Below, piece by piece: positions 3,179 through 56,516 of a stretch of DNA of 64,000 bases. Every line of letters starts with the position of its first letter. Positions within the stretch are counted from its first letter, which is position 1. The position numbers and the translations under genes were made by a program. Below the pieces are notes generated by a model, which saw nothing but the letters and a program-made list of their open reading frames with translations, did no database searches and was not told where the DNA came from. The DNA is from an uncultured Bacteroidales bacterium. Lineage in GTDB: Bacteria; Bacteroidota; Bacteroidia; Bacteroidales; Bacteroidaceae. The stretch is taken from the NCBI GenBank assembly GCA_902787575.1, contig CADAGX010000002.1:219809-283808 (forward strand), in the 5' to 3' direction.

Positions 3179-3260
3179 ATGCGACGCGTCGCATCGCTTC
3201 ACGCCACACGTCGCAAGTCGTCACGCGACGCGTCGCGTGACGGAAAACTACACGTCGCAT
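3179..3260. repeat. Array A: four 12-bp dyad cores at 22-bp pitch
   Basis: Cores lie at 3181-3192 (GCGACGCGTCGC), 3203-3214 (GCCACACGTCGC), 3225-3236 (GCGACGCGTCGC inside the 20-bp perfect palindrome TCACGCGACGCGTCGCGTGA, 3221-3240) and 3247-3258 (ACTACACGTCGC). Centres are at 3186.5, 3208.5, 3230.5 and 3252.5, exactly 22 bp apart. Flanks tend to be TCAC before and GTGA after each core. The array ends in CATTTTT. The same family recurs at three other intergenic sites in the window. Confidence 0.9.
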
Positions 3261-3396: not shown

Positions 3397-4896
3397 ATGG
3401 AACAGACACTTTTCATCTATAACACTTTGACTCGTCGCAAGGAACTTTTCCGTCCCTTGCACGAAGGGCGAGTGGGTATGTACGTGTGTGGCCCGACGGT
3501 TTACGGCGACGCACATTTGGGACATGCTCGTCCCGCCATCACGTTCGACTTGCTCTTCCGTTACCTTCAGCACATCGGATACAAGGTTCGCTACGTGCGT
3601 AATATCACCGACGTGGGTCATCTGGAGCACGATGCAGACGAGGGCGAAGACAAGATAGCCAAGAAGGCACGGCTCGAACAGCTGGAGCCGATGGAGGTGG
3701 CGCAGTATTACACAAACCGCTTCCACGAGGCCATGGCTGCACTGAACTGTCTGCCGCCCAGCATTGAGCCGCATGCCACCGGACATATCATCGAGCAGCA
3801 GCAACTCGTCAGCGAGATTCTGCGCAACGGCTATGCCTACGAAAGCAACGGTTCCGTCTATTTCGATGTCGAGAAATACGACAAAGACCACAAGTACGGC
3901 ATTCTCTCTGGTCGCAACCTCGAGGAGGTGAAGGACGCCTCGCGCGAGTTGGATGGAGTGGGCGAGAAGCGTCGTCAGGCCGACTTTGCGCTGTGGAAGA
4001 AGGCGCAGCCCGAGCATATCATGCGCTGGCCCAGCCCGTGGAGCGACGGATTCCCCGGCTGGCACTGCGAGTGTACGGCCATGGGGCGCAAGTATCTGGG
4101 CGCGCACTTCGACATTCACGGCGGTGGCATGGACCTCATCTTCCCGCACCACGAGTGCGAGATTGCACAGGCTGTGGCATCGCAGGGCGACCAGATGGTA
4201 CGCTACTGGATGCACAACAACATGATTACCATCGAGGGCAAGAAGATGGGCAAGTCGTACAACAACTTCATCACCCTGCCGCAGTTCTTCAGCGGCGAGC
4301 ACGAGAAGTTGACGCAAGCCTATGCACCGATGACCATTCGCTTCTTCATTCTGCAAGCTCACTACCGCTCGACGGTGGACTTCGGCAACGAGGCCCTGCA
4401 GGCTGCCGAGAAGGGACTGGCGCGACTGATGGACGGTTGGAAGGCGCTGAAGCGGCTGCAGGAAGGGCAGAAGGTGAAAGGCGCGCCGGCTGTGGAGATG
4501 TCGTACGTCGACGAACTGCGCTCGAAGTGTTACGAGGCGATGAACGACGACCTCAATTCGCCGATTGTTATCAGTCACCTCTTCGATGCTTGCCGCGTCA
4601 TCAATACGGTGCTCGACAAGAAAGCCAGCATCTCGGCCGAAGTGGCGCAAGCATTGCTTGGTCTCTTCCATACGTTTGCTTTCGATGTGCTTGGTCTCGC
4701 TGAGGATGCCGAAGGAAACAACAAGGCACGCGAGGAAGCGTTTGGTGCCGTGGTGAATATGGTGCTGGAGCAGCGCGTGCAAGCCAAGGCCGAAAAGAAC
4801 TGGGCACTGAGCGACAAGATACGCGACGACTTGGCGGCCCTTGGTTTTGAGGTAAAAGACACCAAGGATGGTTTCAGTTGGACGCTGAATAAATAA
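3397..4896 (+). CDS. cysS: Cysteinyl-tRNA synthetase
   Basis: Cytoplasmic class I aminoacyl-tRNA synthetase that charges tRNA-Cys with cysteine. At 499 aa it has normal family length. The HIGH motif appears as HLGH (residues 40-43), preceded by the zinc-ligand Cys31 in YVCGPTVYG. Further zinc ligands are the WHCEC segment near residue 223 and HHECE near 251. The second signature is KMGKS (283-287), a usual Bacteroidota variant of KMSKS. The C-terminal part carries the expected DALR-like helical domain. The ATG at 3397 is well placed behind the -7 box at 3369. Transcription appears monocistronic, since the next gene is convergent. Confidence 0.98.
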
Positions 4897-10732: not shown

Positions 10733-10808
10733 ACGACGTGTCGCATTTTTTGCGGTGCCCGCAGTTTTGGGACTACCACGTGTTGCATTGGTCGAAACGA
10801 CGTGTGGT
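10733..10808. repeat. Array B: degenerate 22-bp-phased dyad array
   Basis: Recognisable cores are ACGACGTGTCGC (10733-10744), ACCACGTGTTGC (10775-10786) and ACGACGTGTGGT (10797-10808). Centres are 42 and 22 bp apart; the slot between the first two holds only a degenerate GC-rich palindrome (TGCGGTGCCCGCA, 10751-10763). It lies between the Fur-family gene (ends 10811) and the sigma operon, both on the minus strand. Confidence 0.7.
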
Positions 10809-24666: not shown

Positions 24667-26574
24667 ATGATGAAAGGTAACCAGATGTCAGCGGGCGGCC
24701 GTATTGCCGCCTCCTTACGCGAGAGGCAGGATCAGCATGCTGCGTGGCGCGTCTGTCTGCTCTTCCTGCTGAGGTTTTTCCTCTCGTGCCTTCTCGTTTT
24801 TGCAGTGGGAAAGGTCGTTTTCATGTGTTACAACCGTTCTGTCGAAGTTTTTTCGGTGCGCGACGTGTGGGACGTCTGGCGTCATGGCTTCAGTATGGAC
24901 GTCAGCACCAGCTGTTACCTGCTCGTCCTGCCGTGGCTTGTGATGCTCCTCTGGCAAAGTTGGCGGCGGATGCCCGTCAGATGGTTGCTCGTGCCCTACA
25001 GCGTGCTTGTGGCCGTTCTGCTGGGCCTCATTATTGGCGGTGACGCGGTGCTTTATGAGTTTTGGAAATTCAAGCTCAATGCCGCCATCTTCTCCTATAT
25101 GCACAATCCCGAGGGAGCTACGGCCAGTGTGAGCCTGCCATTCCTCGTTTCGCGTGTCGTTGGCATCCTGTTGGCCATCTTCCTCATAGCCATATTACTG
25201 TTGCAGGCGGTGCGTGCCAGCCTTCCAGCCCCGCGTGTTCGACAGACAGGGCGTGCGTGGGCCGCTGTCCTGCTATTAATGCTGGCTCCAGTTGTGTTCC
25301 TTGGCATCCGTGGCAGCATAGGCACCAGTGTGATGAACGTAGGCGTTCCGTACTACAGCCAGCGGCTGTTTCTGAATCATTCGGCCGTCAATCCGGCTTT
25401 CAGCCTGCTGTCTTCCTTCAAGCGTGCGAAGAATTACTCAGACGAGTTCGACTGGTTGCCCGAAACGGAGCGTGCCGAGGTTTTTGCCCCTCTGTATCCG
25501 TTGGAGACAGAAGACGTGGCTGATACGTTGCTCGCCACGACGCGACCCAATATCCTCGTGGTGCTGATGGAAAGCTTTGGCGGCAAATTTGTGGCCGAGT
25601 TGGGTGGTATTCCGGACGTAGCGCCGAATTTGAGCCGCCTCATACGGGAAGGCGTCTTCTGGGAGCAGTTTTATGCCAACAGCTTCCGCACCGACCGTGG
25701 TACGGTGTCTGTCTTCAGCGGTTGGGTAAGCTATCCCACCGTGTCCCTCATGCGGTTGCCCGACAAACTTGCTGGCATTCCGTCGCTGGCACAGTGTCTG
25801 TTGCACGAAGGTTACACCACGGGTTATCTCTACGGCGGCGACATACGCATCATGGGGAAGCGAGGCTATCTTGTAAGTGCAGGGTATCAGGATTTTGTGA
25901 GCGACAAGGATTTCCCTTTCTCGGCAGTGCACGAGAGCAAGTGGGGTGTAAACGATAGTATCGCAGCCCGTCGGATGTACGAATGGATAGCCAGTAAACC
26001 TGCTTCCGAACGGTGGCACCTGGTATTCCAGACGCTGTCGAGCCACGAGCCCTTCGAGGTGCCGTATCATCGGCTTGCCGACAAGAAACTCAATGCCTTT
26101 GCTTTCACCGATCAGTGCATCGGGTCGCTCATAGATTCGCTGCGGACCTTGCCTGCTTGGGACGACATGCTCGTCATACTGCTGCCCGACCACGGTTATC
26201 TCTACGACCTTACGTACGAAGACCCAGCCTTCTTCCATTGCCCCATGCTGTGGCTGGGTGGCGCTGTCAAGCAACCGCGGCGAATGCAAGTGCTGATGAA
26301 TCAGAGCGACCTTGCGGCCACGCTGCTCTCGCAGATGGGAATCTCGCACACCGACTTCCCTTGGAGTCGTAACGTGCTGAGCCGTGCATATACGTATCCT
26401 TTTGTCTATAGCAATTTCCCGGGTGGCATACTTTTCTGCGACAGCACAGGAGTCAGCGTCTTCGACATCGCCAGCCGCCAACCCATTACCGAGCAGCCGG
26501 CGCCGTCGCCCGAGCGAGTGCAAAAAGCAAAGGCTATCCTGCAGACCAGCTACGACCAGTTAGGTGCTCGCTGA
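24667..26574 (+). CDS. LtaS/MdoB-like membrane phosphotransferase, second copy
   Basis: 635 aa, a clear paralogue of the preceding gene over its whole length, with a longer N-terminal cytoplasmic extension (GNQMSAGGRIAASLRERQDQ). Catalytic residues are kept: E302 in LMESFGG, nucleophile T346 in RTDRGTVSVFSG, LSSHEPF, LPDHGY. Segments such as DSLRTLPAWDDMLVIL are nearly identical in both copies, pointing to tandem duplication followed by divergence. Different acceptors or different donor groups may explain keeping both (inference). Last gene of the argS-led run. Confidence 0.92.
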   Translation: MMKGNQMSAGGRIAASLRERQDQHAAWRVCLLFLLRFFLSCLLVFAVGKVVFMCYNRSVEVFSVRDVWDVWRHGFSMDVSTSCYLLVLPWLVMLLWQSWRRMPVRWLLVPYSVLVAVLLGLIIGGDAVLYEFWKFKLNAAIFSYMHNPEGATASVSLPFLVSRVVGILLAIFLIAILLLQAVRASLPAPRVRQTGRAWAAVLLLMLAPVVFLGIRGSIGTSVMNVGVPYYSQRLFLNHSAVNPAFSLLSSFKRAKNYSDEFDWLPETERAEVFAPLYPLETEDVADTLLATTRPNILVVLMESFGGKFVAELGGIPDVAPNLSRLIREGVFWEQFYANSFRTDRGTVSVFSGWVSYPTVSLMRLPDKLAGIPSLAQCLLHEGYTTGYLYGGDIRIMGKRGYLVSAGYQDFVSDKDFPFSAVHESKWGVNDSIAARRMYEWIASKPASERWHLVFQTLSSHEPFEVPYHRLADKKLNAFAFTDQCIGSLIDSLRTLPAWDDMLVILLPDHGYLYDLTYEDPAFFHCPMLWLGGAVKQPRRMQVLMNQSDLAATLLSQMGISHTDFPWSRNVLSRAYTYPFVYSNFPGGILFCDSTGVSVFDIASRQPITEQPAPSPERVQKAKAILQTSYDQLGAR

Positions 26575-26584
26575 GGCATCCTTT

Positions 26585-26665
26585 CATGCGACGTGTCGCA
26601 TGAGTCCACGCGACGCGTCGCGTGAGCCGTTGCCACACGTCGCGTGAAGCAACGCCACACGTCGC
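26585..26665. repeat. Array C: four 12-bp dyad cores at 22-bp pitch
   Basis: Cores are GCGACGTGTCGC (26588-26599), GCGACGCGTCGC (26610-26621, within an 18-bp palindrome 26607-26624), GCCACACGTCGC (26632-26643) and GCCACACGTCGC (26654-26665). Centres 26593.5, 26615.5, 26637.5 and 26659.5 are exactly 22 bp apart. The array fills the gap between convergent genes, and its last core touches the A-run that serves as the U-tract of the minus-strand terminator. Confidence 0.92.
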
Positions 26666-44176: not shown

Positions 44177-46450
44177 ATGAAACGAATCAATAAGGCTTTG
44201 GCCACCATCTTTTCTCTGAGTCTGTTACTCCTCTTCGTTCCCTCACGGGGCATGGGATATGGCATGCACGTCTGGCCGGATGACAATCCTCCGGCAGCGC
44301 AGGAAGTCTCAGACTCTCAGCCTAAGCAGTACGGCCTCATTCAGGCTGGCATCTATTTGCTGGCTCGTTCATACGGCGACAGCGTTGTGCTCCGTTGGGG
44401 CGCAGAGGACTATGTGACTCAGCGCACGCTGGACGAGGATGGTGTGATGGTGGTACGCTACGATTACGATCCCGAGGGCGACGACCCCTTCTGCGATACA
44501 CTGGTCATAGGCCTGAAGCCTTGGACACAGCAGCAATTCGAGGAAACGTATGCCCAGGACGACAGCATCGCGCGCATGGCCATGGGCGTAATGTTCAGCA
44601 AAAGCGGACTGCGCCCCGACCAGACGAAGGCAACACCCGGTAGCTTCGGTTCTCTGCTCGAAATTCATCAAGACCAGCAGACCAACCAAGCCTTCCGTAT
44701 GTTGGTGGCCGAATGGCGTCGCGACTTGGCCGAACATATGGCCATGCGTTGGGTGGACAAGAACGTGCGGCCCGGACACGAGTATGAATACATCGTTCGT
44801 CCCGTGAAATACGATAGCACGTTGCAGCTCATCATTGCTCCGGCTATCCTGAGAGTCGTAAATAAACGTTATCTGCGTCCTGACTTCGACATCAAGATGG
44901 GAGACAGTATTATCTCTCATTGTCAGGTGCGTCTCTGGTGGGAGGACCGCGGCATCTCGAGCTACGAGATTGACCGTCGCCGTGAGGGAGAGACAGAATG
45001 GACACGCGTCAATAATCTTCCTTATTGGAACATGCAACCGGTGACGGACGGAGTGGAATTGCCCGACTCGCTCGACTGCTTCTATGGCGATGTGGTGCCC
45101 GAGCCCGGCAACTACGAATACCGCATCTTCGGTCACGACCCCTTTGGCGACCTCACAAAGTCGTCTCCGATTCTCAAGGTGCGTGTGCCCGACATGGAGG
45201 CGCCGCGTGCTCCCGAACTGGTGCTGGTGGAGATTGACCGTCAGGACAGCACAGACCTCTCGAAGCAGGTGATGGCTACCTTCCACTTCGAGAAGGACAC
45301 GCTGGAGGAAGACTTCACGGGCTTCAATGTGCTCTACTACAACGAGCGCCATACGGGCCACGAATGGAAGAAGCTGAACAAGGAACTGCTGCCGCCGAGC
45401 GACTCGCTCTTCACCTGCGACATGACGGGCTTCAGCACTGGCATGGTGCTCGTGGCCGCCTTCGATACGGCGCAGAACGTGTCTTACTCCCTGCCGCGCA
45501 TGGTGCAGATAAAGGACGTTAAGGCGCCTGCACCGATGCGTAACTTCAAGGCTGAAGCCAGCATCGAGGACGGCACCATCACACTGACATGGGAGCCCGA
45601 TACGTTGGACGACGATATCGAGTACTACGAAGTGCTCTTTGCCAACGACACCACCCACTCTTTCATCCAGCTCAACGAGGGCAAGCTGAAGGAGCCGCGA
45701 TACGTGGATACTGTGGCAATGGACGTGAACCAAAAGTACATATATTATAGGGTGCGCGCGGTGGACTTCTCGACCAACCAGAGCAAGGACGTCCAACTTC
45801 AGGTGCTGCGCCCCACACGTCTGAAACCGCAGGTGGCCCATCTACTCGACTCGCGTGCCGACTCGCTGGGCATCCACATGCAGTGGGCGTGCAGCAACGA
45901 ACAGATTATGGACCGCCACGTGCTGATGCGCCGACTCAGAGGCGAAGAGAAGTGGGATACGTTGGCTGTCTTCTCGGCCGACTCCATACGTGCAGCAGAG
46001 AACGTGCTCCATTATACCGACAGTCCCGGCTACAACCGCAAGCAGGACTATCAGTATTGCGTGGAATCGTTCTCGTGCTTCAACATCTCCAGCGGTCTCA
46101 GCCTGATATTCTCCATCAGCTACGAAGGACCTCGCATTCAGCAGATTCCCATCGAGCTGAAGGGAGCCTATCTGACCGAGAGCAACGAGACGCAGCTCAC
46201 GTGGAACATCAACAACGGCAAGCCTGTGGAGGGTGACTGGTACATCTGCATCTACCGCAAGGGACCGCGCGACGAGAACTACGTGTTCCACATCTCCGTG
46301 CCAGCCGACACGAAGGAGAGACGCTCCTCGATACTGACACCCGGACAGGCAGAGCAGTACTACGTCAAACTGAGATTCGAAGACGGCCGCGAGAGCCGCA
46401 TGTCGAACGAGGTGCGGGTGGAAAGGCCCGCAGCTGCGACGGGCAACTGA
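44177..46450 (+). CDS. Fibronectin type III-like exported protein
   Basis: 757 aa. The N-terminal hydrophobic signal segment is LATIFSLSLLLLFVP. Residues about 35-250 contain an unrecognised domain opening with GIYLLARSYGDSVVLRWG, itself an FN3-like strand pattern. At least three FN3-like repeats follow, for example APELVLVEIDRQDSTD ... GFNVLYYNERH, APMRNFKAEASIEDGTITLTW ... YYRVRAVDFSTNQS, and a final ETQLTWNI ... YYVKLRFEDGRES. It follows the giant gene after 22 bp. In context it is probably a secreted or periplasmic partner of the giant protein. Confidence 0.85.
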   Translation: MKRINKALATIFSLSLLLLFVPSRGMGYGMHVWPDDNPPAAQEVSDSQPKQYGLIQAGIYLLARSYGDSVVLRWGAEDYVTQRTLDEDGVMVVRYDYDPEGDDPFCDTLVIGLKPWTQQQFEETYAQDDSIARMAMGVMFSKSGLRPDQTKATPGSFGSLLEIHQDQQTNQAFRMLVAEWRRDLAEHMAMRWVDKNVRPGHEYEYIVRPVKYDSTLQLIIAPAILRVVNKRYLRPDFDIKMGDSIISHCQVRLWWEDRGISSYEIDRRREGETEWTRVNNLPYWNMQPVTDGVELPDSLDCFYGDVVPEPGNYEYRIFGHDPFGDLTKSSPILKVRVPDMEAPRAPELVLVEIDRQDSTDLSKQVMATFHFEKDTLEEDFTGFNVLYYNERHTGHEWKKLNKELLPPSDSLFTCDMTGFSTGMVLVAAFDTAQNVSYSLPRMVQIKDVKAPAPMRNFKAEASIEDGTITLTWEPDTLDDDIEYYEVLFANDTTHSFIQLNEGKLKEPRYVDTVAMDVNQKYIYYRVRAVDFSTNQSKDVQLQVLRPTRLKPQVAHLLDSRADSLGIHMQWACSNEQIMDRHVLMRRLRGEEKWDTLAVFSADSIRAAENVLHYTDSPGYNRKQDYQYCVESFSCFNISSGLSLIFSISYEGPRIQQIPIELKGAYLTESNETQLTWNINNGKPVEGDWYICIYRKGPRDENYVFHISVPADTKERRSSILTPGQAEQYYVKLRFEDGRESRMSNEVRVERPAAATGN

Positions 46451-46513
46451 CCTCCGGCTCTGACAATGAATAGCAAATAACAAGGATTACGAATTGATAC
46501 AAACGACGCGGAT

Positions 46514-47203
46514 ATGAAATATCGACTTTCCAAGCTAATCTGCTTCTGCCTCGTGGGCATGATGGCCAGTTGCGGACTTATCGACATGGAGTTCGACCCC
46601 GAAACGCAACAAATCGTGAGCATGCAGTTCAATTATGACACGGTCTATGTGATGAAAGGCGACACCTTCTTCTTGGCGCCCTACATTTATCCCGACACGG
46701 TGAGCAATACCACGCTGTACTTGTACAGCACGAACGAGCAGGTGGTGGGCGTGCAGAACGACACTATCTATGCTGCCGACGAGGGAGAGACATTGGTGGT
46801 GGCCGTCTCCGTGAGCCATGCGATCTCAGATAGCTGCGTGGTGGTCGTCATGCCTCGGTGGGATGATGTGAACGAACATCAGTATATCAACGATATGGTG
46901 GTCTATGCTCACATCCTCTCGGGTGGTATGGCACCGGCCGGCAAGATGCTCTTCGGTGCCTTCAGCGATGGCGAGCCTCGCGGCTTGGCTGAGCCGATGA
47001 ACGAGGAGCGCACGCTCTATCGGTTCCGTGTGTGGAGCGACGATTTCTATGTCTCGCAAGGCCGCCCCGGCGAGGAGATCACCTTCCGTGCCTATAACCC
47101 ACGCACCCTGCAGGTGCAGGAGACGATGACGCCCTTCAGCATCCCCTTCGACGGCGAGAGCCACGGCACTCCCAGCAAGCCCATCGAGCTGCGCTTCGAG
47201 TGA
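46514..47203 (+). CDS. Lipoprotein sharing the GExRG module with the 884-aa protein
   Basis: 229 aa. Lipobox GMMASC, Cys20. Residues about 30-112 form a Big2/Ig-like beta domain (MKGDTFFLAPYIYP ... TNEQVVGV ... GETLVVAVSVSHAISDSCVVVV). Residues about 120-229 match the module of the first gene of the locus: FGAFSDGEPRG (147-157) and GEEITFRAY (186-194), ending GTPSKPIELRFE. Probably a cell-surface or periplasmic-facing lipoprotein. The 63-bp gap from the FN3 gene contains no terminator, so it is likely co-transcribed. Confidence 0.87.
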   Translation: MKYRLSKLICFCLVGMMASCGLIDMEFDPETQQIVSMQFNYDTVYVMKGDTFFLAPYIYPDTVSNTTLYLYSTNEQVVGVQNDTIYAADEGETLVVAVSVSHAISDSCVVVVMPRWDDVNEHQYINDMVVYAHILSGGMAPAGKMLFGAFSDGEPRGLAEPMNEERTLYRFRVWSDDFYVSQGRPGEEITFRAYNPRTLQVQETMTPFSIPFDGESHGTPSKPIELRFE

Positions 47204-47269
47204 TGCCGTCCCCTTTTCTCCCAGTGACTCCCAAATATGAACGATGAACTATAAACTATGAACTATCAT

Positions 47270-49681
47270 ATGAAACGCCTTGCTTACCTCTCCATACTGC
47301 TTTCCCTCCTGTTGGGAAGCTGTACCCTCATGATGGAGAACGTTGACACCGAAGAAGCAGAACAGGTCAACCTCGAGGAAGTCGGCTTCGACGAGCCTTA
47401 TACCCAAAAGACCGAGTATGGCGATGTTACCTTCCAATACGGTGACAGCACCCGTGTGTTGCATCAGGAAGCCATGAAGTACTTGGTAAAGGTGGAGGAT
47501 GACAGCGTGCTCTATTTCACCGACAACATTCCTCGCGACCTGCTTGTTCCCGAGGGGCAGTACGTGTCTATGGGATGTAACGAGCACCTGCGCCGCGGTC
47601 TCTGCTCGCAGGTGGTCTCTCTGACGAAGGAGAATGGCATGTACCGCATGGTGACTTCGCGTCGGCCCAACAGTAATGTATTCAAGCAGCTGGATGTGGA
47701 TATCAATTTTAATTATGTCCAGGGAATGGACTTCGATACCCAGGAGTACCTCGAGGAACAGGGCATGATTAATGAGCGTGGCGACACGGACAGCATCTTC
47801 ACCGACTGGTCGCTGCTGGGACAGGACATCGTGGAGCGCAAGGAGGCCGAGGTGCGCCGTCGCATCCGCGCCCGCTATGGCGAGTCGGCCATGACGCGAT
47901 GGAGCTTTTTTGGAGATGATGAGGAGGTGGAGGAAGGCGACCAAGGTGACAAGGACTATAAGCCCTCGGATATCGATAAGACAGATAAGAAAACGAAGGA
48001 CGTCAGAATCTTCAAGATTACGACGAAGCGCATGGTAGAGCTCTTCGACTTCAAACGAGCTGGAGACTGGAAGGGAAGTCTGGAAGTAAACTATCACGAA
48101 GAGACCACTGTACACCATATTCAGAAAGTATCGAACGGACAGGACTATCTCTACGACAGCTATGACGAGTCGGCCAGCATTTCGGCCACTCTCAACCTTG
48201 GTTGGGAGAATACACTATGGAACTCCAACGAGACAAAGACGCTCAAGGGTGCCTATAATAAAATCTACGACAAGATAAATGACGGTTGGTACGAGAGAGT
48301 CAAGAAGAACAAGAAGGCGCTCTCCTGTTCGAACTTCATGATTCATATTCCGCTCCCAGTCATCACTGCAGTGGAGTTCTTCATTCGTATCGAACCGAAG
48401 GTGGATGTCACCGTAGAATTGGTTGGCGAATTGCAGGTAACCAAACAACTTACTAAGATACACAAGGAGGTAGAGTATCAGGATGGTAAACTGATAAAGA
48501 AAATATATAAGCCAGCAAAAGAATCAAACAACAGTTTCAAGGTTACCAAGTTCGACTTATATGGCTCCTTCTGTATAGATGCACACGTGGAAGCCTTGGT
48601 CGGTTTTGCCACGACGGGTGGCAACTTCGGGTTGGGCATCGGTGCGGAGGTTGGCATGAAGTACACGATAGGGCTTCATTTGCCCATTCAGCCACAAGAC
48701 GGAGGCTCTTTCAGCGTGTATCTAAAGCCGAAGATAAAGGCCTTTGCCCAGTCGCCAGGAGGAAAGCCATGGGCCGAGATGGATTTCAGTATTCCTGGAG
48801 TTCCAGCTGAGATTAATCTGTTGGGACCGGTGACGGTGCCTATGAGTCCCACGTTCGACCAACCGAAGGGTAGTTTTACGTTGAATGAAGTAGGTGGAGA
48901 TCCTTCTGCCGTGGTCAAGGCCAGTTTCCGCATCGCTGATCTGAACGCTTTAAAATACGTAAATTTGGCCGATTATGAGGTAACTGCCCGCCTCTTCCGC
49001 GAGGAGAAAGGAAAGGAATCCGAAATGGTGGGTGATGCACTTCCGCAGGCGCTTTCCTCGAATTATAAAACGTCATATACTTTCAATATCGAGGATGCCG
49101 ATTACAAAGCTGGATGCTATTATACAGTCCGCCCGTTTGTGAGGTATAAGAAGACCGGCGATATAGTCGGAGACGAAAATAGTGATGTGATATGTAAATT
49201 AGAGGGAGATGACTCCGAATACCCCGTACTCTCATTCCAGAAATTCTATCAGATCAGTTTCGAGAAGACAGAAGATGACTATGAGAATTACGGCGTGAGA
49301 CTGCGCGTCCTCATGAACAACCTCGAGAAACAAGTGAACTGGAAGGAGTGGGGCGTAGAATTGGAGGTGAAGGGCTATTACCGCGAATCTTACGGTGGCT
49401 ACAAGAAAGGAGATTATCGCGAGACGTTGCTCGAGCGCAAGCGCTTCCCTGTGAGAAGGCTGGTTACGAAGAAAAACATTCTCCTGAGCTACAAGATGGA
49501 GACGCCTGGCGACGAGGACATAGAGGTAACAGCCCTCGTGTATTACATCGACAAGAAGGATGAAATCCACTTCATCCACATGCTTGACGTTAACAAGGAG
49601 ATTCTCCGCCTGACCGATGACATGGACGACTGGGAAACGGATACATCCCATGGCAACGAGCAGAACATATCTATTAAATAA
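47270..49681 (+). CDS. Large lipoprotein, last gene of the surface locus
   Basis: 803 aa from MKRLAYLSILLSLLLGSC (Cys18 lipobox); the in-frame ATG at 47258 would add only four residues ahead of the signal peptide. The N-terminal 230 residues include an acidic and charged linker (FFGDDEEVEEGDQGDKDYK). The middle (about 240-530) is beta-rich with glycine-rich strands (ALVGFATTGGNFGLGIGAEV, YTIGLHLPIQPQ). The C-terminal 250 residues have FN3-like strands (YYTVRPFVRYKKTG, EVTALVYYIDKKD). No known family was recognised. Its glycine-rich strands resemble those in the giant protein's middle region, which would fit interaction or shared ancestry (inference). Confidence 0.85.
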   Translation: MKRLAYLSILLSLLLGSCTLMMENVDTEEAEQVNLEEVGFDEPYTQKTEYGDVTFQYGDSTRVLHQEAMKYLVKVEDDSVLYFTDNIPRDLLVPEGQYVSMGCNEHLRRGLCSQVVSLTKENGMYRMVTSRRPNSNVFKQLDVDINFNYVQGMDFDTQEYLEEQGMINERGDTDSIFTDWSLLGQDIVERKEAEVRRRIRARYGESAMTRWSFFGDDEEVEEGDQGDKDYKPSDIDKTDKKTKDVRIFKITTKRMVELFDFKRAGDWKGSLEVNYHEETTVHHIQKVSNGQDYLYDSYDESASISATLNLGWENTLWNSNETKTLKGAYNKIYDKINDGWYERVKKNKKALSCSNFMIHIPLPVITAVEFFIRIEPKVDVTVELVGELQVTKQLTKIHKEVEYQDGKLIKKIYKPAKESNNSFKVTKFDLYGSFCIDAHVEALVGFATTGGNFGLGIGAEVGMKYTIGLHLPIQPQDGGSFSVYLKPKIKAFAQSPGGKPWAEMDFSIPGVPAEINLLGPVTVPMSPTFDQPKGSFTLNEVGGDPSAVVKASFRIADLNALKYVNLADYEVTARLFREEKGKESEMVGDALPQALSSNYKTSYTFNIEDADYKAGCYYTVRPFVRYKKTGDIVGDENSDVICKLEGDDSEYPVLSFQKFYQISFEKTEDDYENYGVRLRVLMNNLEKQVNWKEWGVELEVKGYYRESYGGYKKGDYRETLLERKRFPVRRLVTKKNILLSYKMETPGDEDIEVTALVYYIDKKDEIHFIHMLDVNKEILRLTDDMDDWETDTSHGNEQNISIK

Positions 49682-49687
49682 GGAATA

Positions 49688-49819
49688 GAAGCCCCGTCCC
49701 CATCCTTGCCACGAGGGGAGGGAGCAAATGAGAAGCCCCCTCCCCAGCCCTCCCGCGAGGGGAGGGAGTAAATGAGAAGCCCCCTCCCCAGCCCTCCCGC
49801 GAGGGGAGGGAGTAAATGA
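49688..49819. repeat. Three tandem 44-bp GC-rich repeats
   Basis: Units 49688-49731, 49732-49775 and 49776-49819. Units 2 and 3 are identical; unit 1 differs at several positions. Each contains CCCCTCCCC ... GGGGAGGG, able to form a hairpin, and ends in AGTAAATGA. They begin 7 bp after the stop of the large lipoprotein. They share the CCCTCCCC/GAGGGG theme with the repeats at 63791-63894. They may act as a 3'-end stabiliser or terminator. Confidence 0.92.
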
Positions 49820-49865
49820 GAGATTAAGGAGTAGGAGTGATAAATTGTATTAGCTTGAATGTGGA

Positions 49866-50249
49866 ATGAAAAGATTCCGAAATGTGATATTTCTTTTGCT
49901 GTGCTGCAGCCTTCAGGCTGTGGCACAGCCGCGGCTTACGTTTCGCGAACTGATGGCCGACGCAGGCACGCTGAGCGTGGGCAAGGCTGAGAGCCGCAAG
50001 GTGGTGTTCGAGTGCAAGAACACGGGCACACAGCCGCTCATCTTCGACCATGTGGAGACGAGTTGCCCGTGTGCCGACGTGAAGTTGCCTCGCAAGCCGC
50101 TGAAGCCGGGCAAGTCGACACGCATCAAGGTGACGTTTCATTCCAAGGATTTGGACGACCGCGGTGTCTCGACCAACCTCATCACCATCTTCTACAACGG
50201 GCCAAATCAGTTCACTCGCATCCGAGTTTTTGCCAACTTGGTGGACTGA
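49866..50249 (+). CDS. DUF1573-type exported protein
   Basis: 127 aa. Signal peptide to about residue 20 (FLLLCCSLQAVAQ). The mature part is a single Ig-like domain of the DUF1573 type: FECKNTGTQPLIFDHVETSCPCADV with its CPC motif, then PLKPGKSTRIKVTF. Such proteins are very common in Bacteroidota envelopes; the function is unknown. It is separated from the surface locus by the 44-bp repeats and followed by dyad array D. Confidence 0.9.
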   Translation: MKRFRNVIFLLLCCSLQAVAQPRLTFRELMADAGTLSVGKAESRKVVFECKNTGTQPLIFDHVETSCPCADVKLPRKPLKPGKSTRIKVTFHSKDLDDRGVSTNLITIFYNGPNQFTRIRVFANLVD

Positions 50250-50276
50250 TTCGACCGCTCAATTTTGCTTCTCGGA

Positions 50277-50382
50277 ATGCCACGCGTGGCATGCTTTCAC
50301 GCGACGCGTCGCGTGAGCTCTTGCGACGTGTGGCGTGAGCTCATGCGACGTGTAGTTTTTTTCACGCGACGCGTAGCATTTC
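50277..50382. repeat. Array D: five 12-bp dyad cores at 22-bp pitch
   Basis: Cores are GCCACGCGTGGC (50279-50290, inside a 16-bp perfect palindrome), GCGACGCGTCGC (50301-50312, inside TCACGCGACGCGTCGCGTGA, 50297-50316), GCGACGTGTGGC (50323-50334), GCGACGTGTAGT (50345-50356) and GCGACGCGTAGC (50366-50377). Centre spacings are 22, 22, 22 and 21 bp. Seven T's follow the fourth core (50356-50362). Intergenic, between the DUF1573 gene and the acyltransferase promoter. Confidence 0.93.
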
Positions 50383-50483
50383 TGGGTTCCTCATTTTCCC
50401 TTTTCCGACAGCGCCTTCGGCGGCTCTATTTGCCAAAGGGCAAGAAAAAAGCATTTTTCTTTTTCTTTCCGCTTATTTTACGC

Positions 50484-50491
50484 TACCTTTG
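50484..50491 (+). promoter_or_regulatory. -7 box directly in front of the acyltransferase ATG
   Basis: TACCTTTG ends 4 bp before the ATG at 50496. If transcription starts 4-7 nt after the box, the message would be leaderless or nearly so. The region 20 bp upstream is T-rich without a clean TTTG. Confidence 0.65.
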
Positions 50492-50495
50492 CAGT

Positions 50496-51434
50496 ATGAA
50501 GTGGACAGAATGGTTGCTACTGAGTGTGCTGCGTGGTCTCTCGCGCTTGCCTTTGAGGGTGCTCTACGTGCTCTCCGACTGTCTCTTCCCAGTGGTTTTC
50601 CATGTGGTGCGCTATCGCCGTCGGCTCGTGCAGCGTCAGTTGGCAGATAGCCTGCCGGAGAAAACGGCGGAGGAGCGTCGGCGCATCGAGCGCCAGTTTT
50701 ACCACAATCTCTGCGACTACGTGGTGGAAATCCTGAAGCTGCAAACCATTCCGATTGCCGAGCTGAAGCGGCGCGTCCGCTTCGAAGGCTTCGATACGCT
50801 GCAGGACGAGATGCGTCGCCGCGGTAAGAGTGTGGTTTTTGCCTATCTCGGCCACTACGGCAACTGGGAGTGGCTGTCGTCTTTCGCGCTCTGGCTCGAA
50901 GACGACATGCAGGCCGCGCAGATTTATCATCCGCTGCGCAACAAGCAGGCCGACGAGTTCTTCCTGCGTTTGCGTGCGCGTTGCGGAGGTGCCAATATCC
51001 CCATGAAGGATACGCTGCGGCGCATCCTTTCGTTGCGTGCTTCGGGACGCGGCCTCATGGTGGGCTGCATTGCCGACCAGAGTCCGAAGTGGGAAGCCAT
51101 GCACCACTGGACAAACTTCCTCCACCACGAGACTTCCTTCTTCATCGGCGCGGAGCACCTGGCGAAGCGGCTCGATGCCGTTGCTTTCTATTTGCATGTG
51201 TCGCGGCCTCGGCGCGGATATTACGAGTGCCGGGTCGAGCATACGTGCTTCGACACGACAGCTGTGCCAGATTACGCGCTGACCGACCAGTATGCCGCGC
51301 TGCTGGAGCAGCAGATACGCGAGGAACCCGCCCTGTGGCTTTGGACGCACGACCGCTGGAAACGTACCCGCGAGGAGTGGGAGCGCCGACGCAAAGCCTC
51401 GGACGCTAAGTCCCGCAGCGAAGAAAAAGACTGA
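50496..51434 (+). CDS. Lipid A-type acyltransferase (LpxL/HtrB family)
   Basis: 312 aa from MKWTEWLLLSVL (ATG 50496); upstream in-frame codons lie in the repeat array and promoter. The N-terminal hydrophobic anchor is followed by the acyltransferase signature GHYGNWEW with H120 and E125 (Hx4E) and the later QSPKWEAMHHWTNFL segment. The family transfers an acyl chain to the lipid A precursor at the inner membrane. The C-terminus is highly charged (RTREEWERRRKASDAKSR). It is followed after 22 bp by the glf gene and stands at the edge of the glycan cluster, consistent with lipooligosaccharide assembly. Confidence 0.92.
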   Translation: MKWTEWLLLSVLRGLSRLPLRVLYVLSDCLFPVVFHVVRYRRRLVQRQLADSLPEKTAEERRRIERQFYHNLCDYVVEILKLQTIPIAELKRRVRFEGFDTLQDEMRRRGKSVVFAYLGHYGNWEWLSSFALWLEDDMQAAQIYHPLRNKQADEFFLRLRARCGGANIPMKDTLRRILSLRASGRGLMVGCIADQSPKWEAMHHWTNFLHHETSFFIGAEHLAKRLDAVAFYLHVSRPRRGYYECRVEHTCFDTTAVPDYALTDQYAALLEQQIREEPALWLWTHDRWKRTREEWERRRKASDAKSRSEEKD

Positions 51435-51456
51435 CAGACATTAAAGAAGAAAAGAT

Positions 51457-52566
51457 ATGCTGGATTACCTCATAGTTGGCTCAGGCCTGATGGGCGCCAC
51501 GTTTGCTCACCTGGCACACCGCGCCGGAAAACGTTGCCTTGTGCTGGAGAAGCGGCCGCATACGGGCGGCAATGTGCATTGTCTCGACGTGGAGGGAATC
51601 CACGTCCATCAGTATGGCGCCCACATCCTGCACACCAACGATGCGAAAGTGTGGGACTTCGTAGGGCAGTTCGTGCGCATGAACCGCTACACCAACTCGC
51701 CGCTGGCCAACTATCGCGGCACGCTCTACAACCTGCCGTTCAACATGAACACGTTCCACCAGATGTGGGGCGTGGTGACGCCCGACGAGGCTCGCGCCAT
51801 CATACAGCAGCAGACGACTGCCGAGCCTGCGGCCGACGACTCGCTCGAGTCGCACGCCATCCGCCTCGTGGGCCGCGACATCTACGAGCGGCTCATCAAA
51901 GGATACACCGAGAAGCAGTGGGGCCGCCCCTGCTCGCAGCTGCCGTCCTTCATCATCAAACGCCTGCCGCTGCGCTTCGTCTATGACAACAACTACTTCA
52001 ACGACCGCTATCAGGGCGTGCCCGAGGGCGGATACAACGTGCTGACGGACGCCTTGCTGAAGGGCATAGAGGTGCGTACCGACGTGGACTTCCTGCAGAA
52101 TCGCGCTTGGCAGGAGCAGGCGCGACGCGTGGTCTTCACCGGTCCGCTGGATGCCTTCTTCGACTTCCGCCTTGGGCATCTCGAGTATCGGACCGTGCGC
52201 TTCGAAACCGAGACGCTCTCCACATCCAATTTCCAAGGCAACGCGGTGGTGAATTATACCGACAGCGAGACACCTTGGACGCGCATCATCGAGCACAAGC
52301 ACTTCGAGTCGTTCGGCGACGACGTGTACCAGAATCCGCACACCGTCATCAGCCGCGAGTACAGCACGGAGTGGCAGCCCGGCATGGAGCCGTACTATCC
52401 CATCAACGATGCGCGCAACTCGCAGCTGCTGGCTCAGTACCAACAACTGGCGGCCGCCGAGAAGAATGTCATCTTCGCCGGCCGGCTGGCCGAGTACAGG
52501 TATTACGACATGGCGCCCACCATAGCGCGCGCAATGGAACTGTGGGAGCGCGAAGCCAGCGTTTAG
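51457..52566 (+). CDS. glf: UDP-galactopyranose mutase
   Basis: 369 aa, full length. The N-terminal FAD-binding motif GSGLMG (8-13) is followed by EKRPHTGGNVH and the HQYGAHILHTN segment, all diagnostic. The enzyme converts UDP-galactopyranose to UDP-galactofuranose, the donor for galactofuranose residues in surface glycans. It is transcribed toward the minus-strand glycosyltransferase cluster, and the two stop codons overlap (52563-52566). Presence of glf predicts at least one galactofuranosyltransferase nearby; the 306-aa GT2 is the best candidate. Confidence 0.97.
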   Translation: MLDYLIVGSGLMGATFAHLAHRAGKRCLVLEKRPHTGGNVHCLDVEGIHVHQYGAHILHTNDAKVWDFVGQFVRMNRYTNSPLANYRGTLYNLPFNMNTFHQMWGVVTPDEARAIIQQQTTAEPAADDSLESHAIRLVGRDIYERLIKGYTEKQWGRPCSQLPSFIIKRLPLRFVYDNNYFNDRYQGVPEGGYNVLTDALLKGIEVRTDVDFLQNRAWQEQARRVVFTGPLDAFFDFRLGHLEYRTVRFETETLSTSNFQGNAVVNYTDSETPWTRIIEHKHFESFGDDVYQNPHTVISREYSTEWQPGMEPYYPINDARNSQLLAQYQQLAAAEKNVIFAGRLAEYRYYDMAPTIARAMELWEREASV

Positions 52567-53468
52567 GCTTTCTCTGTGGCAGTGCGCGAAAGTGTTTCTT
52601 CGATGTGACGCACTGCCTCCATATGTGTAGAAGAAAATTTGCGGGCAAACAGATACGGACTTGCCAACAGTTGCGGCACGTCCGCGTCCTGCCACACGTA
52701 CGGGTTGCCACGCGTCCAGTCGATGGCTCGCACGCTGCTTCGTTCGGCATCAGACGCGTCGAAGACTTTGTCGCGGAAGGGCGAGTTCCATAGTGCCGTC
52801 TGCATGAAGAGTTCGTCGGGGCACAGCGTAAAGCGGAAAGTCTGCCAGAGTTTTTTCTCCTGACGGAGCACATATTCGCAGCACGCCTGCGTGATGCTGA
52901 ACCATTGCGGCCCCTTGCGTATCTCCCAGTCTCCGTGTTTTCTCCTTATCCCCAGCACTTTCTGCGCTGCCAGCAGCAGGTTGCGTACGGGCGCCGTCAG
53001 GGCGTGAGCCACCGGATTTCCCCTTCCTTTGGTGCGGTTGAGCACGTAGTAGTATCGCGTCCGGCGTGTGGCGTCGGCCAACTGTTTGGGCGCGTTCCAG
53101 AATCCCACCATCTCGCTCGTTTCGTGTTCGGCGAAGAAGTGGTGAATCTCGTCTTGCGTCTTGAGTGGCAAGTCCACGCCCGAGAGCAGGTGGTAGCGCT
53201 CGTATGGGCCGTGAGCTGCTGCCGTCCGCAGGCATTTCAGCTCGGCTTCCATCACAGAAGTATGCGCCCAATAGACGCTCAGCGGCTGCATATCCACGAA
53301 CAGGCGGGCGTGGGAGAGTCGCTTTGCTGCAAATCGTTGCCGCATGGCACGTGCCTTGCGGTCGATGTGCAGAAAGATGTCGTTTCGCTCGTCGTCCAGC
53401 ATTCGCAGCAGCGCCTCCAGTATCTCCGGTTCGTTGTGCGCCATGATGAGGTATGCGTGTCGTTTCAT
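52563..53468 (-). CDS. Core-2/I-branching-type beta-1,6-N-acetylglucosaminyltransferase-like (GT14)
   Basis: 301 aa from MKRHAYLIMAHNEPE (ATG 53468). The opening AYLIMAHNEPEILEALLRMLDDERNDIFLHIDRK, the segment YHLLSGVDLPLKTQDEIHHFF and CPDELFMQT (acidic catalytic region) are typical of the Branch/GT14 family. Likely adds a GlcNAc or related sugar to the surface glycan; acceptor unknown. The start overlaps the upstream GT4 stop by 4 bp. The gene ends convergent with glf, sharing 4 bp, with no room for a terminator. Confidence 0.92.
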   Translation of the reverse strand: MKRHAYLIMAHNEPEILEALLRMLDDERNDIFLHIDRKARAMRQRFAAKRLSHARLFVDMQPLSVYWAHTSVMEAELKCLRTAAAHGPYERYHLLSGVDLPLKTQDEIHHFFAEHETSEMVGFWNAPKQLADATRRTRYYYVLNRTKGRGNPVAHALTAPVRNLLLAAQKVLGIRRKHGDWEIRKGPQWFSITQACCEYVLRQEKKLWQTFRFTLCPDELFMQTALWNSPFRDKVFDASDAERSSVRAIDWTRGNPYVWQDADVPQLLASPYLFARKFSSTHMEAVRHIEETLSRTATEKA

Positions 53469-54640
53469 TCCGTGTCGAGCAATGATTCGTAAAGCGCGAC
53501 GTGCGCCTTGCAGGTTTCCTCCAGCGGGTATTTCAGACTCAGCACGTGGCGCTGCATCTCGTGGCGCGCGTCCTCGTCTTTTATCAGGTGCGTGAGCTGG
53601 CGTGCAAACTCGTCGAGGTCGAACGGCGTCACCAGCACACCATTCTCGCCACCGTTCGTCAGCAGGTTCTCCACTCCAGCGCAGCAGTTGAAGGCCACGG
53701 GCACCACGCCGTTGGCCTGTGCTTCCATGATAACCAGCGGCCAGCCCTCGTAGGACGAAGTGAGGCAGAGTATGGCAGCACGCTCGTAGTACGGGCGGGT
53801 GTCGGCATGTCGGCCCTCGAATGAGACGTGCTGCAGTTGCAGGCGTGCTGCGAGGGCGCGCAAGTTGCCTTCCTCGGGCCCGTCGCCGATGATGAGCAGT
53901 TGCCAGTCGGGGCATTGCGGCTCCACGGCGGCCCATATCCGCAGCAAGCGGTCCACGCGTTTGTCTGTGTATGACAGACGGCCCACGAAGATGACCGCCT
54001 TCTCCTTCTCTGTGCGTGGCTGACGGACGGGCAGCAGATAGTTGGGCGTGACGTGTATCTTCTGTGCCTCCTGAGCCGAAAGCTGCAGTGTCTGTTGCAA
54101 CAGCGCCTTGTATTCGGGGCAGAGCACCGTGAAGGCGTCCACGCTGCGCAGGGTGCGGGCGTAGCGGGCTGCGTATTTCCTCTCATAGACGTGCAGGCGG
54201 TTGAAGCGCACATTGTAGTAGCAGTACCATTGCAGGCGCTGCCACAGGTTGCCATCCTTCAGGCGTTCTTTCCTTGCCTTCTTGTGGAGCGTCTCCCAGA
54301 ACGGCAGGGTGTGGCTCGCGTGCACGATTCTGACGCCCGTCTGTAGGCGTATCTGTGACGCGAAGTACGGCTCTGTGCACACATAGGTGAGAATCCGAAT
54401 GCCGTGTTCGCGGATGTGGCTGGCAAGCTCGTCGGCCGATGCTTTGTCCTTCAGTTTCTGTCGGTACTCGATGATGTCGAGCGCACAGTCGACGGGCAGA
54501 AGCGAGGGCACGACCTCGCGGCAGAAAACAATCACGCGATAGCCTTCTCGTGCCAAGGCTTGCCCCACGTCGAGCGTCACTTTCTCTGCGCCTCCGCAAG
54601 GGAACTGTCCGCCAAATACAAAGCCGATGGTTGTGGTCAT
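53465..54640 (-). CDS. Glycosyltransferase family 4
   Basis: 391 aa. GT-B fold. The N-terminal half has GFVFGGQFPCGGAEKVTLDV (GGAE, typical for GT4), the C-terminal half VIFVGRLSYTDKRVDRLL and EGWPLVIMEAQANGVVPV (EX7E nucleotide-sugar binding motif). Cytoplasmic or peripheral enzyme adding a sugar from a nucleotide donor, retaining mechanism by family. Preceded after 33 bp by the acyltransferase gene and coupled (ATGA) to the GT14 gene. Confidence 0.93.
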   Translation of the reverse strand: MTTTIGFVFGGQFPCGGAEKVTLDVGQALAREGYRVIVFCREVVPSLLPVDCALDIIEYRQKLKDKASADELASHIREHGIRILTYVCTEPYFASQIRLQTGVRIVHASHTLPFWETLHKKARKERLKDGNLWQRLQWYCYYNVRFNRLHVYERKYAARYARTLRSVDAFTVLCPEYKALLQQTLQLSAQEAQKIHVTPNYLLPVRQPRTEKEKAVIFVGRLSYTDKRVDRLLRIWAAVEPQCPDWQLLIIGDGPEEGNLRALAARLQLQHVSFEGRHADTRPYYERAAILCLTSSYEGWPLVIMEAQANGVVPVAFNCCAGVENLLTNGGENGVLVTPFDLDEFARQLTHLIKDEDARHEMQRHVLSLKYPLEETCKAHVALYESLLDTE

Positions 54641-54673
54641 GCTGTGAGTTGTATGTTTTCTGCTGGGTGTTTT

Positions 54674-55669
54674 TTATTGTTCTGCACGTGTGGCCCGTCC
54701 TGTCGTCGTGACGAAACGCCAGATACCCTCGAGCAACATGGCTGTGGCCAACGAGACGGCCACGAGTACGACGTACATGAGCAGGGGATAGCGCAGGCCG
54801 TATATTTCCTCGTGGAAGAGATAGTAGGCATAGAACGTGTGGGTGAGCCACATATAGAGCGAGTAGCGACCGAAGAAGACGAGCACTTTCTGCATGGGGG
54901 CAGATACTTTCAGCTGCATGTACAGGAAAACGAATAGCAGGCAGAAGAAGACGTTGAAGTCGCTGGCCCCGATCATCATGCGCACAAGGCAGAGCAAGAC
55001 TATCCACACGAGCGTAAACCTCCCGCCGCGAGGCAAGGGCAGCGAAGGATGGAGCGCGCAGATACATCCTGCGTAGAATGGCGGCAAGACAAACAACGTG
55101 TTCTTCAGAAGCTTGACGGCTATAATGCTGCTCCACGGGCCGAGCATTTTGTGAAGCAGGCTCACGAGGAAGACGATGACGAAGAGGGTGGCGTTGGTGC
55201 GTAGCGTGTGTCGTCGGGTGAAGTCGATAATGTGGCGCGACAGGAGAAGAAGCACCACATAGGGGAAGACGAACCACCATTCTCCGTTGTACGAGCATGA
55301 GAGCGCCAGAAAGTTCAGCAGCAACGTTTGCGCGCTGCCGGGGTATTGGTCGGGACGAAGCCAGCAAGCCAGCGGGATGAAGGCAAGGAAGACATACCAG
55401 TAGCGCTTGTAGAGACGGAGGATGCGTTTGCCCGTAGCCGTGTCGGCCGTCTTGGCCAGTCCGTAGCCCGAGACAAAGAGATAGATGGGGACGCAGAGGC
55501 CTGCCACCCTGGCCAGGGCGTAAACCAACGGCTTGCCGTTGATGAAGTTGACAAAGGTGGTGCACTCTTCGACGCGTGTCAGCGTGTTGAAAAGATGCAG
55601 AAAGAGCATCATCAGGATGGCGATGCCCTTCAGTTCTACGCTTTGTTCCTTCTTAATATCAAGCATCAT
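54674..55669 (-). CDS. Membrane acyltransferase (acyltransferase-3 family)
   Basis: 331 aa with about 9-10 transmembrane helices. The N-terminus ELKGIAILMMLFLHLFN has the usual catalytic-type histidine in helix 1 of the acyltransferase-3 (OafA/WecH-like) family, followed by PIYLFVSGYGLAKTAD (family motif FxxSGY/F). Probably O-acetylates or otherwise acylates a sugar of the surface glycan. ATG at 55669 or 55666 (two consecutive ATGs). Starts 1 bp after the fucosyltransferase stop. Confidence 0.9.
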   Translation of the reverse strand: MMLDIKKEQSVELKGIAILMMLFLHLFNTLTRVEECTTFVNFINGKPLVYALARVAGLCVPIYLFVSGYGLAKTADTATGKRILRLYKRYWYVFLAFIPLACWLRPDQYPGSAQTLLLNFLALSCSYNGEWWFVFPYVVLLLLSRHIIDFTRRHTLRTNATLFVIVFLVSLLHKMLGPWSSIIAVKLLKNTLFVLPPFYAGCICALHPSLPLPRGGRFTLVWIVLLCLVRMMIGASDFNVFFCLLFVFLYMQLKVSAPMQKVLVFFGRYSLYMWLTHTFYAYYLFHEEIYGLRYPLLMYVVLVAVSLATAMLLEGIWRFVTTTGRATRAEQ

Positions 55670-55670
55670 T

Positions 55671-56516
55671 TTATGCGTCGGCCTCTATGCGAATCCAGTT
55701 GTCGAGGTAGATGGGCATCCGTCCGCCGTCTCCCGCGTTCCAATGGTCGGGACAAATGACGGTCTGGCTCTTGCTGCTGAGCCAAACGCCCCACCACGAA
55801 AATGTGCTGTTGCAGATGATATGGTGGTGGCAGTGCGTCATCAGCATCATATCCTGCCAGCTGTCTTCGCCTCGGTTCCAGTTGATATACGTGGCGTTGG
55901 CCAGCGGCAGATTCTCGCGCACCCACTCCATGTCTTCGCAGAAGACGTAGTAGTGTGGATTTGGCACGAGCTCTTCCATCCGGCGGAGTGCCTTTTGGTA
56001 GTAGGGCAGCTGGCAGACGCATCCCACGGCCTTGTAGTGCTCGGGTTTCAGGTAGTCGCCGCGCCGGATGTGCAGCGAGACGGAGTTCGCCTCGGCGTCT
56101 ATCTGTGCGGCGAGGGCTTTGTTTTGCTGGCTTGCCAGCTCCATGTTGAACGTGAACGCCCTGCGGATTTCTTCTTCGTGGCCTTCGAGGTAGGCCAGAT
56201 TCTGGTAGAAACCCTTGTAATAGACCAGCGGCCAGAGGATTTTCCCGTCGTAGTGACGGAGCGAACCATGCTCGTGCCGCTCGAGGATGGTGCGGAAGAA
56301 CAGGAATTCGAGCGCCTTCTTCAGCCACTGCGGCAGGCAGATTTCTGTGTGCGGCAGGCGGAAGACGCGGTTCATCTCGTAGCCGTGGTGGACTTTGTAG
56401 TGCACCATGTCCGAAAGGTCTATCCACGTTTTCGGGTAGCGGCTTTTCATGCGCAGGTAGAGCGCGTAGATGAACATCTGGTTGCCCAGTCCGCCGGTCA
56501 TTTTTATGAGTCGCAT
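55671..56516 (-). CDS. Alpha-1,2-fucosyltransferase-like (GT11)
   Basis: 281 aa from MRLIKMTGGLGNQMFIYALY (ATG 56516), the canonical GT11 N-terminus. The GDP-fucose motif is HIRRGDY (149-155), and the later CNSTFSWWGVWL is the second family hallmark. Expected to transfer fucose in alpha-1,2 linkage onto a glycan, as in FutC/WbsJ; in a gut commensal this could create host-like H antigen (inference). The start lies 13 bp inside the 3' end of the upstream GT2. Confidence 0.95.
   Translation of the reverse strand: MRLIKMTGGLGNQMFIYALYLRMKSRYPKTWIDLSDMVHYKVHHGYEMNRVFRLPHTEICLPQWLKKALEFLFFRTILERHEHGSLRHYDGKILWPLVYYKGFYQNLAYLEGHEEEIRRAFTFNMELASQQNKALAAQIDAEANSVSLHIRRGDYLKPEHYKAVGCVCQLPYYQKALRRMEELVPNPHYYVFCEDMEWVRENLPLANATYINWNRGEDSWQDMMLMTHCHHHIICNSTFSWWGVWLSSKSQTVICPDHWNAGDGGRMPIYLDNWIRIEADA

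Follow-up and report, generated by a model that had tools for sequence, protein, structure and literature searches.

The central fact of the repeat arrays that we describe here from an uncultured Bacteroidales genome is that the spacer between neighbouring cores is fixed in length while its sequence is free. The family is not defined by its core; near relatives share the 22-bp pitch with other cores. We put at about an even chance the reading that these arrays are platforms for a helically phased DNA-binding protein lying on one face of the DNA, with a target that turns over between species.

Phased arrays in the window and its genome

The window, by which we mean the whole 64,000-nt stretch of DNA analysed, belongs to genome G000 (other genomes and loci carry G and L numbers) and holds four arrays, A to D, with the following neighbours.

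Array A, 3181..3258, no strand assigned: four cores, 22 bp; cysteinyl-tRNA synthetase gene 138 bp further on
Cysteinyl-tRNA synthetase gene, 3397..4896, + strand: PF01406; follows array A; its G005 and G134 relatives have a 3'-side array instead
Array B, 10733..10808, no strand assigned: degenerate; three cores; outside the tally of 58 arrays given below
Sulfatase gene, 24667..26574, + strand: PF00884; its G134 relative likewise has a lag-22 array 3' of the gene
Array C, 26588..26665, no strand assigned: four clear cores, 22 bp; 13 bp past the sulfatase gene
DUF1573 gene, 49866..50249, + strand: PF07610; precedes array D
Array D, 50279..50377, no strand assigned: five cores; the DUF1573 gene ends 29 bp before, the lipid A acyltransferase gene starts 118 bp after
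Lipid A acyltransferase gene, 50496..51434, + strand: PF03279; follows array D; its G134 and G025 relatives likewise have a 5'-side array

The five cores of array D start at 50279, 50301, 50323, 50345 and 50366 of the window sequence and are centred on 50284.5, 50306.5, 50328.5, 50350.5 and 50371.5, giving spacings of 22, 22, 22 and 21 bp exactly as the first-pass annotation had claimed. The same core and pitch had been claimed for three more regions, and this is borne out by array A (cores at 3181, 3203, 3225 and 3247) and array C (26588, 26610, 26632 and 26654), both with spacings of 22, 22 and 22 bp, but only partly by array B, whose cores at 10733, 10775 and 10797 are 42 and 22 bp apart. 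Within the window the strict core GCSACRYGTSGC is found at 10 sites, all of them in arrays, whereas 100 first-order Markov simulations gave 0.16 on average and 3 at most; seven of its pairs stand 21 or 22 bp apart, as compared to none in any simulation. A core search allowing two mismatches gave 20 window matches against a mean of 6.0, with 20 or more in 0 of 100 shuffles. A 24-kb segment (window 26.6-50.3 kb) is bounded by arrays C and D, and a single ORF of about 3,570 codons (33439-44154) runs between them.

Genome G000 comprises 2.65 Mb in 34 contigs and is estimated to be 86.9% complete. Queried with the DNA of array D it returned 69 matches; R1, a sequence-only profile spanning two units, had 203 matches over both strands at E up to 0.1. 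Arrays were called in the stretches fetched around the R1 places and in the window, the sole stretch not selected around arrays, a chain being at least three cores; 60 chains resulted, two of them second registers of the same array, so that G000 has at least 58 arrays. The expected genome-wide, almost wholly intergenic family is thus present: 54 of the 58 lie between two called genes, two at contig ends and two inside genes, with gene calls from a simple in-house caller that misses some genes. Neighbouring cores 20-23 bp apart (n=183) are separated by 22 bp in 175 cases and by 21 bp in eight, and by 20 or 23 bp in none, so the constant spacing on which the first-pass annotation had staked its claim extends beyond the four sites of the window. 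Nine further core distances up to 70 bp were 32, 42, 43 (three), 44 (three) and 65 bp.

Information per position over 274 G000 units is 0.03-0.09 bit at the four middle spacer positions and up to 0.96 bit at the spacer edges, so that the spacers described earlier as RTGA...TCAC follow that form as a tendency of their edges and no further. Core positions reach 0.5-1.94 bit, values that are inflated, as those of the spacer are not, by the choice of cores by score; C2, A4 and C5 are nearly fixed and position 3 is loose (0.5 bit). Scans for perfect dyads found few sites because symmetry is imperfect at the R-Y centre and at position 3. A CRISPR array was rejected here as it had been in the first-pass annotation, the core being 12 bp and variable and the spacers 10 bp with some recurring, as compared to conserved repeats and unique spacers of ~30 bp.

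Relatives recognised by rhythm

Searched by core, the family appears narrow. R1 matched 7 of 61 genomes, G000 included, all seven in one genus, and none of 80 named loci fetched through a neighbouring gene; a mixed profile, R2, matched 30 of 139 genomes of the genus and 5 of 201 of the family, one of these from another genus, with G000 included each time. Arrays in congeners retain both the GACRYGTC centre and the pitch but differ in their spacers (for instance GTTTGCCAAC). Core profiles under-count carriers because dialects are missed, and lag scans, in which self-similarity is measured at each lag, were therefore used instead. Neither G134 nor G025 has an R2 match, yet both show 22-bp arrays on such a rhythm scan.

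In the 1,192,937 bp of G134, lag 22 was found at 50 places, none of them inside called genes, and its double, lag 44, at 28, as compared to 0-13 places for all other lags from 12 to 45, the highest of which (14, 18 and 21) are multiples of 3 or 7. Among 374 intergenic stretches of the same genome lag 22 had 45 places against none in 20 block shuffles, and other lags had up to 7. The G134 cores are mostly R-Y-centred dyads (GGARCRYGYTCC, TTTATCACRYGTGATAAA, GTGGMRTGCCAC, CTACRYGTAG) and some families are non-dyad, the consensus letters and dyad status in G134, and likewise the letters in G025, having been judged by eye. Dyads resembling GAGTACTC also follow one another at about 11 bp, half the pitch, in two G134 loci (L302 at about 350-400 and L379 at about 11870-11930). 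G025 showed seven lag-22 places in 60 kb at a looser threshold and two at a stricter one, other lags from 14 to 35 giving 0-2, with array cores GCAMCRYGKTGC / CGCAMCRYGKTGCG.

Beyond the genus, G170 of the same family has one lag-22 place in 20 kb (AAACAATATTGTTT), and G171, also from another genus, has none in 40 kb. The 80 named loci (1.41 Mb) held 12 lag-22 places, the top of lags 14-40, followed by lag 21, a multiple of 3, with 10; four of them, L032, L034, L072 and L076, have clear phased dyads, and each bears a Prevotella or Prevotellaceae title. The dialect of G112 is non-dyad, with the majority unit RCGACAGCAAGCAGGAGCCGAT and the further form GCGACAGCAAGC; it matches G112 62 times, G134 twice and weakly, G000 and G025 not at all. 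Two elements of the first description must consequently be given up: the core GCGACGCGTCGC as the definition of the family, and the dyad as an obligatory feature. Whichever reading of the arrays holds, they escape a search by core sequence.

Shared positions and dialects in register

One of the two in-frame arrays of G000 lies in the DNA polymerase I linker that joins the 5'-3' exonuclease domain to the 3'-5' exonuclease domain; the other is in the tail of a DEAD-box helicase gene. In the same linker of G112 and G134 a 22-bp array has its first base at the same point, 39 nt downstream of where a shared GGCGACCT starts, and units 1-4 read as follows.

G000: GCGACGCGTGGC, ACTACACGTCGC, GCCACACGTCGC, GCGACGCGTGGC
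G112: ACTACAGCAAGC, ACGACAGCAAGC, GCGACAGCAAGC, GCGACAGCAAGC
G134: GGAGCACGCTCC, AGAGCGTGCTCC, GGAGCACGCTCC, decayed GAGGCAGTAGGG

The linker is 46 residues long in all three, as compared to a median of 33 and a range of 29-56 in 28 congeners besides G000 (G112 and G134 included; one not measurable); that of G025 has 31 residues and no array. Since three species share both position and register, this array was inherited. A core that differs genome-wide between sister species and stands in register in a coding linker points to protein and sites co-evolving, to gene conversion between arrays, or to both.

Outside coding sequence, the lipid A acyltransferase gene has an array before it in three genomes, G000 (array D), G134 and G025, and the sulfatase gene has one after it in two, G000 (array C) and G134. 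The two genes are adjacent in G134 with one array between them, and in G000 they are separated by the 24-kb segment, which is absent from that place in G134. A search with the G000 core found arrays in 0 of 29 congener loci around the acyltransferase gene, where rhythm shows those of G134 and G025. At a stricter threshold, with two of the 50 G134 places dropped as simple repeats, 8 of 57 array-adjacent gene ends have a G134 array at the same end, as compared to 3 of 193 controls (one-sided Fisher p = 0.0004), the eight resting on five G134 arrays and so not being independent; the other 49 of the 57 have none at the same end in G134. A first orthology count, 4/19 against 2/75, was set aside because two of the four were a CCTAAT simple repeat. 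Among 16 distinct G112 arrays, four are flanked by a gene with a relative adjoining a G000 array (DNA polymerase I, L400, L403 and L410; L404, a 46% paralogue, was left out), an uncontrolled count. Array positions are thus partly, not generally, conserved.

A proposed protein platform or a minisatellite

Under the platform reading, an array is a run of about 3-10 tandem 22-bp units, each made of a core of about 12 bp read by a putative sequence-specific protein and a spacer of about 10 bp, fixed in length and nearly free in sequence. In most of the species seen the core is a C-R-Y-G-centred dyad, such as a symmetric dimer would recognise. Two turns of 11 bp each, close to the helical repeat inferred for DNA supercoiled within cells, make up 22 bp and would place bound units on one face, where they could touch or polymerise; the idea of two turns and one face, raised in the first-pass annotation, fits the near-absolute pitch. 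The core changes genome-wide between species, as a dialect, with pitch and part of the positions staying, as if protein and sites were co-evolving. A core-reading protein touching its neighbours on one face would account for the pitch and the runs as well as for the dyads and the looseness of position 3.

Several features argue for this. A spacer of fixed length and free sequence suggests geometry between neighbouring bound units, and the core pattern, with C2, A4 and C5 nearly fixed and position 3 loose, is contact-like. We infer that a protein binds the cores, that bound units touch and that co-evolution drives the dialects; a use in chromosome organisation or in insulating neighbouring genes is possible. 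Counted against the platform are the non-dyad unit of G112, several non-dyad families in G134, the mostly unshared positions and the 40 kb of G171 without arrays; the two gravest objections are the asymmetry of the G112 unit and the failure to find a binding protein. Plasmid iterons and ArgR-type operator pairs are likewise ~18-22-bp repeats about two turns apart with protein on one face, at few loci and with a known protein, whereas the arrays occupy dozens of loci; the spacing near an integral number of turns that marks phased operators and iterons is found here, and lag 22 recurs in G134, G112 and G025. More tentatively, and to our mind rather unlikely as a whole, the arrays might form a chromosome-wide nucleoprotein system in which a protein of fast-changing DNA specificity coats them and a change in that specificity leads to the dialect being rewritten in place, unit by unit, with the pitch and part of the positions inherited.

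The chief rival, unlikely in our estimation, is a self-homogenising dispersed minisatellite without host function. Its 22-bp unit would grow by slippage, gene conversion would spread variants between arrays, the unit length would be kept because out-of-step pairing is not homologous, and the dialects would be ordinary concerted evolution. Units alike within an array (for instance in L256, L259 and L022), dialects that are genome-wide, replacement in place within DNA polymerase I and a G112 unit that is no dyad are all what such a repeat would give, and it counts against the platform that concerted evolution would likewise preserve the unit length of a minisatellite. What it accounts for less readily is that some 12 bp of core are preserved next to a spacer whose middle is free in sequence yet constant in length, and that unrelated cores in G134 share the pitch of 22 when other lags there stay at 0-13 places.

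The minisatellite reading also has a published parallel from another Bacteroidales species, the BrickBuilt element of Porphyromonas gingivalis (PMC4596501), described as a 23-nt intergenic minisatellite within a MITE and found at 19 places in ATCC 33277. BrickBuilt is the nearest published kind, sharing with the arrays its dispersed intergenic tandem repeats, nearly the same unit length and a Bacteroidales host. Compared by description, it differs in being one sequence family within a MITE that has a leader and a tail with terminal inverted repeats, and the available parts of its description contain neither a plan of fixed core and free spacer nor a change of dialect between species. The G000 arrays read by eye showed no common leader or tail beside them, and those of G081 lie in longer mosaics. 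Its 23-nt unit does not recur in the G000 distances, where 22 bp prevails and 23 bp is absent.

Mobile repeats and methyltransferase genes

A REP- or MITE-like mobile palindromic repeat, copied in trans by a transposase, we hold to be improbable. Copies are dispersed and intergenic, many positions are unshared between species, two G000 genes carry in-frame arrays and those of G081 lie within longer mosaic repeats, all of which a mobile repeat would produce. PF01797 (Y1/RAYT) has matches in 62 of 139 congeners, but the array carriers G005, G036, G131, G112 and G025 are not among them; the Y1 transposase was rejected as partner on these five carriers, which speaks against the mobile palindromic repeat suggested at first pass if a RAYT is to move it. 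Array D is also without a match in phage and plasmid collections, and the DNA polymerase I array, common to three species in position and register, was inherited.

Like REP/BIME elements, the arrays are short, dispersed, mostly intergenic palindromic repeats with several families per genome and some units in genes (PMC3733652). The same source, as far as its description was available, reports GTAG- and CGTC-tagged REP super-families, of which the CGTC repeats are present in Bacteroidetes and lack a dedicated transposase. REPs form stem-loops 20-40 bp in length and often pair up head to head as dimers (PMC3733652), whereas the arrays are exact 22-bp runs in which no stem is kept. Of the marks of REP/BIME elements, a cognate Y1 (RAYT) transposase has no match in those five carriers, and a stem-loop maintained by pairing is not kept in the cores.

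The G081 mosaics (L239, L244, L245, L247, L248 and L250) are intergenic, combine several repeat motifs over up to about 400 bp and include arrays among these. The element beside them we take to resemble the IS66 type. Around 1504 of L155 a two-unit array lies within near-perfect inverted repeats of about 20 bp.

All three EcoRI-type methyltransferase genes (PF13651) of G000 have an array 364-620 bp away on their 5' side, and each is followed by a GmrSD_N/HNH restriction-type gene.

EcoRI-type methyltransferase gene, L177 2992-5727
EcoRI-type methyltransferase gene, L184 293-3091
EcoRI-type methyltransferase gene, L187 2989-5691

The methyltransferase module of G025 (L422) has lag-22 arrays on both sides and both G036 copies (L420 and L425) have lag-22 repeats upstream; the G005 copy (L423) has no array. 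As a partner of the arrays the enzyme was rejected, since the array carriers G112, G134, G035 and G131 are without a match to it. A long leader before these genes (L177 3113-3537, L187 3089-3452 and counterparts) is partly alike across paralogues and species and shows paired-looking blocks; Rfam gave one match on four methyltransferase loci, far below its gathering score, and none that is credible.

Gene ends and readings at the RNA level

The arrays favour 3' ends, an enrichment for which the first-pass annotation had proposed a test. Among 298 called gene ends within 700 bp of arrays in nine genomes, the 156 3' ends lie at a median of 80 bp and the 142 5' ends at a median of 191 bp, with 58/156 as compared to 7/142 under 50 bp. 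This crowding at 3' ends is consistent with an RNA-level element, either a transcription terminator or a 3'-UTR hairpin array, and so are the A-rich outer edges in G000 (AAAA at 34/116 outer vs 42/488 inner flanks), G081 (10/20 vs 0/52) and G035 (8/20 vs 5/74); G076 has no such excess (0/18 vs 1/62). We nonetheless regard this role, which the first-pass annotation had listed, as very improbable. The inner pair within cores is broken in 42/66 and 41/66 rows with no covariation, and overall core pairing, at 82.0%, falls below the 85.2% of shuffled rows, the rows overlapping and including reverse complements and so not being independent. Furthermore, the window has no Rfam match, and a terminator scan of 45000-56000 called none at array D, where the GC-rich stem and following T run of an intrinsic terminator were not found. 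That there is no pairing within cores argues that the arrays are not RNA-level, which we count for the platform.

The arrays were also considered as synteny breaks and rejected as such: a neighbour is kept across 9/29 arrays and 5/14 array-free gaps of at least 100 bp, and across 34/64 smaller gaps, so that breaks are no commoner at arrays than at other large gaps.

Least probable of all is a signal resembling those for DNA uptake, its dialects varying by species, that biased uptake and recombination would spread. A short word conserved within a species and differing between species is the mark of the Neisseriaceae DUS (PMC3630211), and biased uptake could rewrite sites in place. Yet the DUS, as described there, has thousands of copies per genome, and such words occur singly, hundreds to thousands of times, whereas the 2.65 Mb of G000 have about 58 phased arrays; an uptake word also needs no fixed pitch.

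Implications

The PINSR repeat of Prevotella intermedia (PMC4755523) is, like the arrays, intergenic, high in copy and restricted to a Prevotella lineage; by description it is set apart through its 188-bp unit, with no 22-bp phasing in the account available. REP super-families, DUS dialects and PINSR thus each share single features with the arrays. As first supposed, the 22-bp phased arrays appear to be undescribed, in that we found no description of them in the open-licence literature. They would be a new variant among dispersed intergenic repeats, and as a nucleoprotein system they would stand further from anything known.

If no protein is bound, the arrays are dispersed bacterial repeats evolving in concert, and the constraint on their length has yet to be explained. 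If the arrays do bind a protein, this lineage, Prevotella-like by its nearest named gene relatives, would have a hitherto undescribed chromosome-wide DNA-binding system whose code differs from one close species to the next, and how a single protein co-evolves with numerous scattered sites could be tested directly. In-place rewriting, if true, would extend even inside the DNA polymerase I gene. Races between proteins and their sites are known from PRDM9 and centromeric satellites, and the arrays would then be a bacterial counterpart of them, with a structural rather than a regulatory role.
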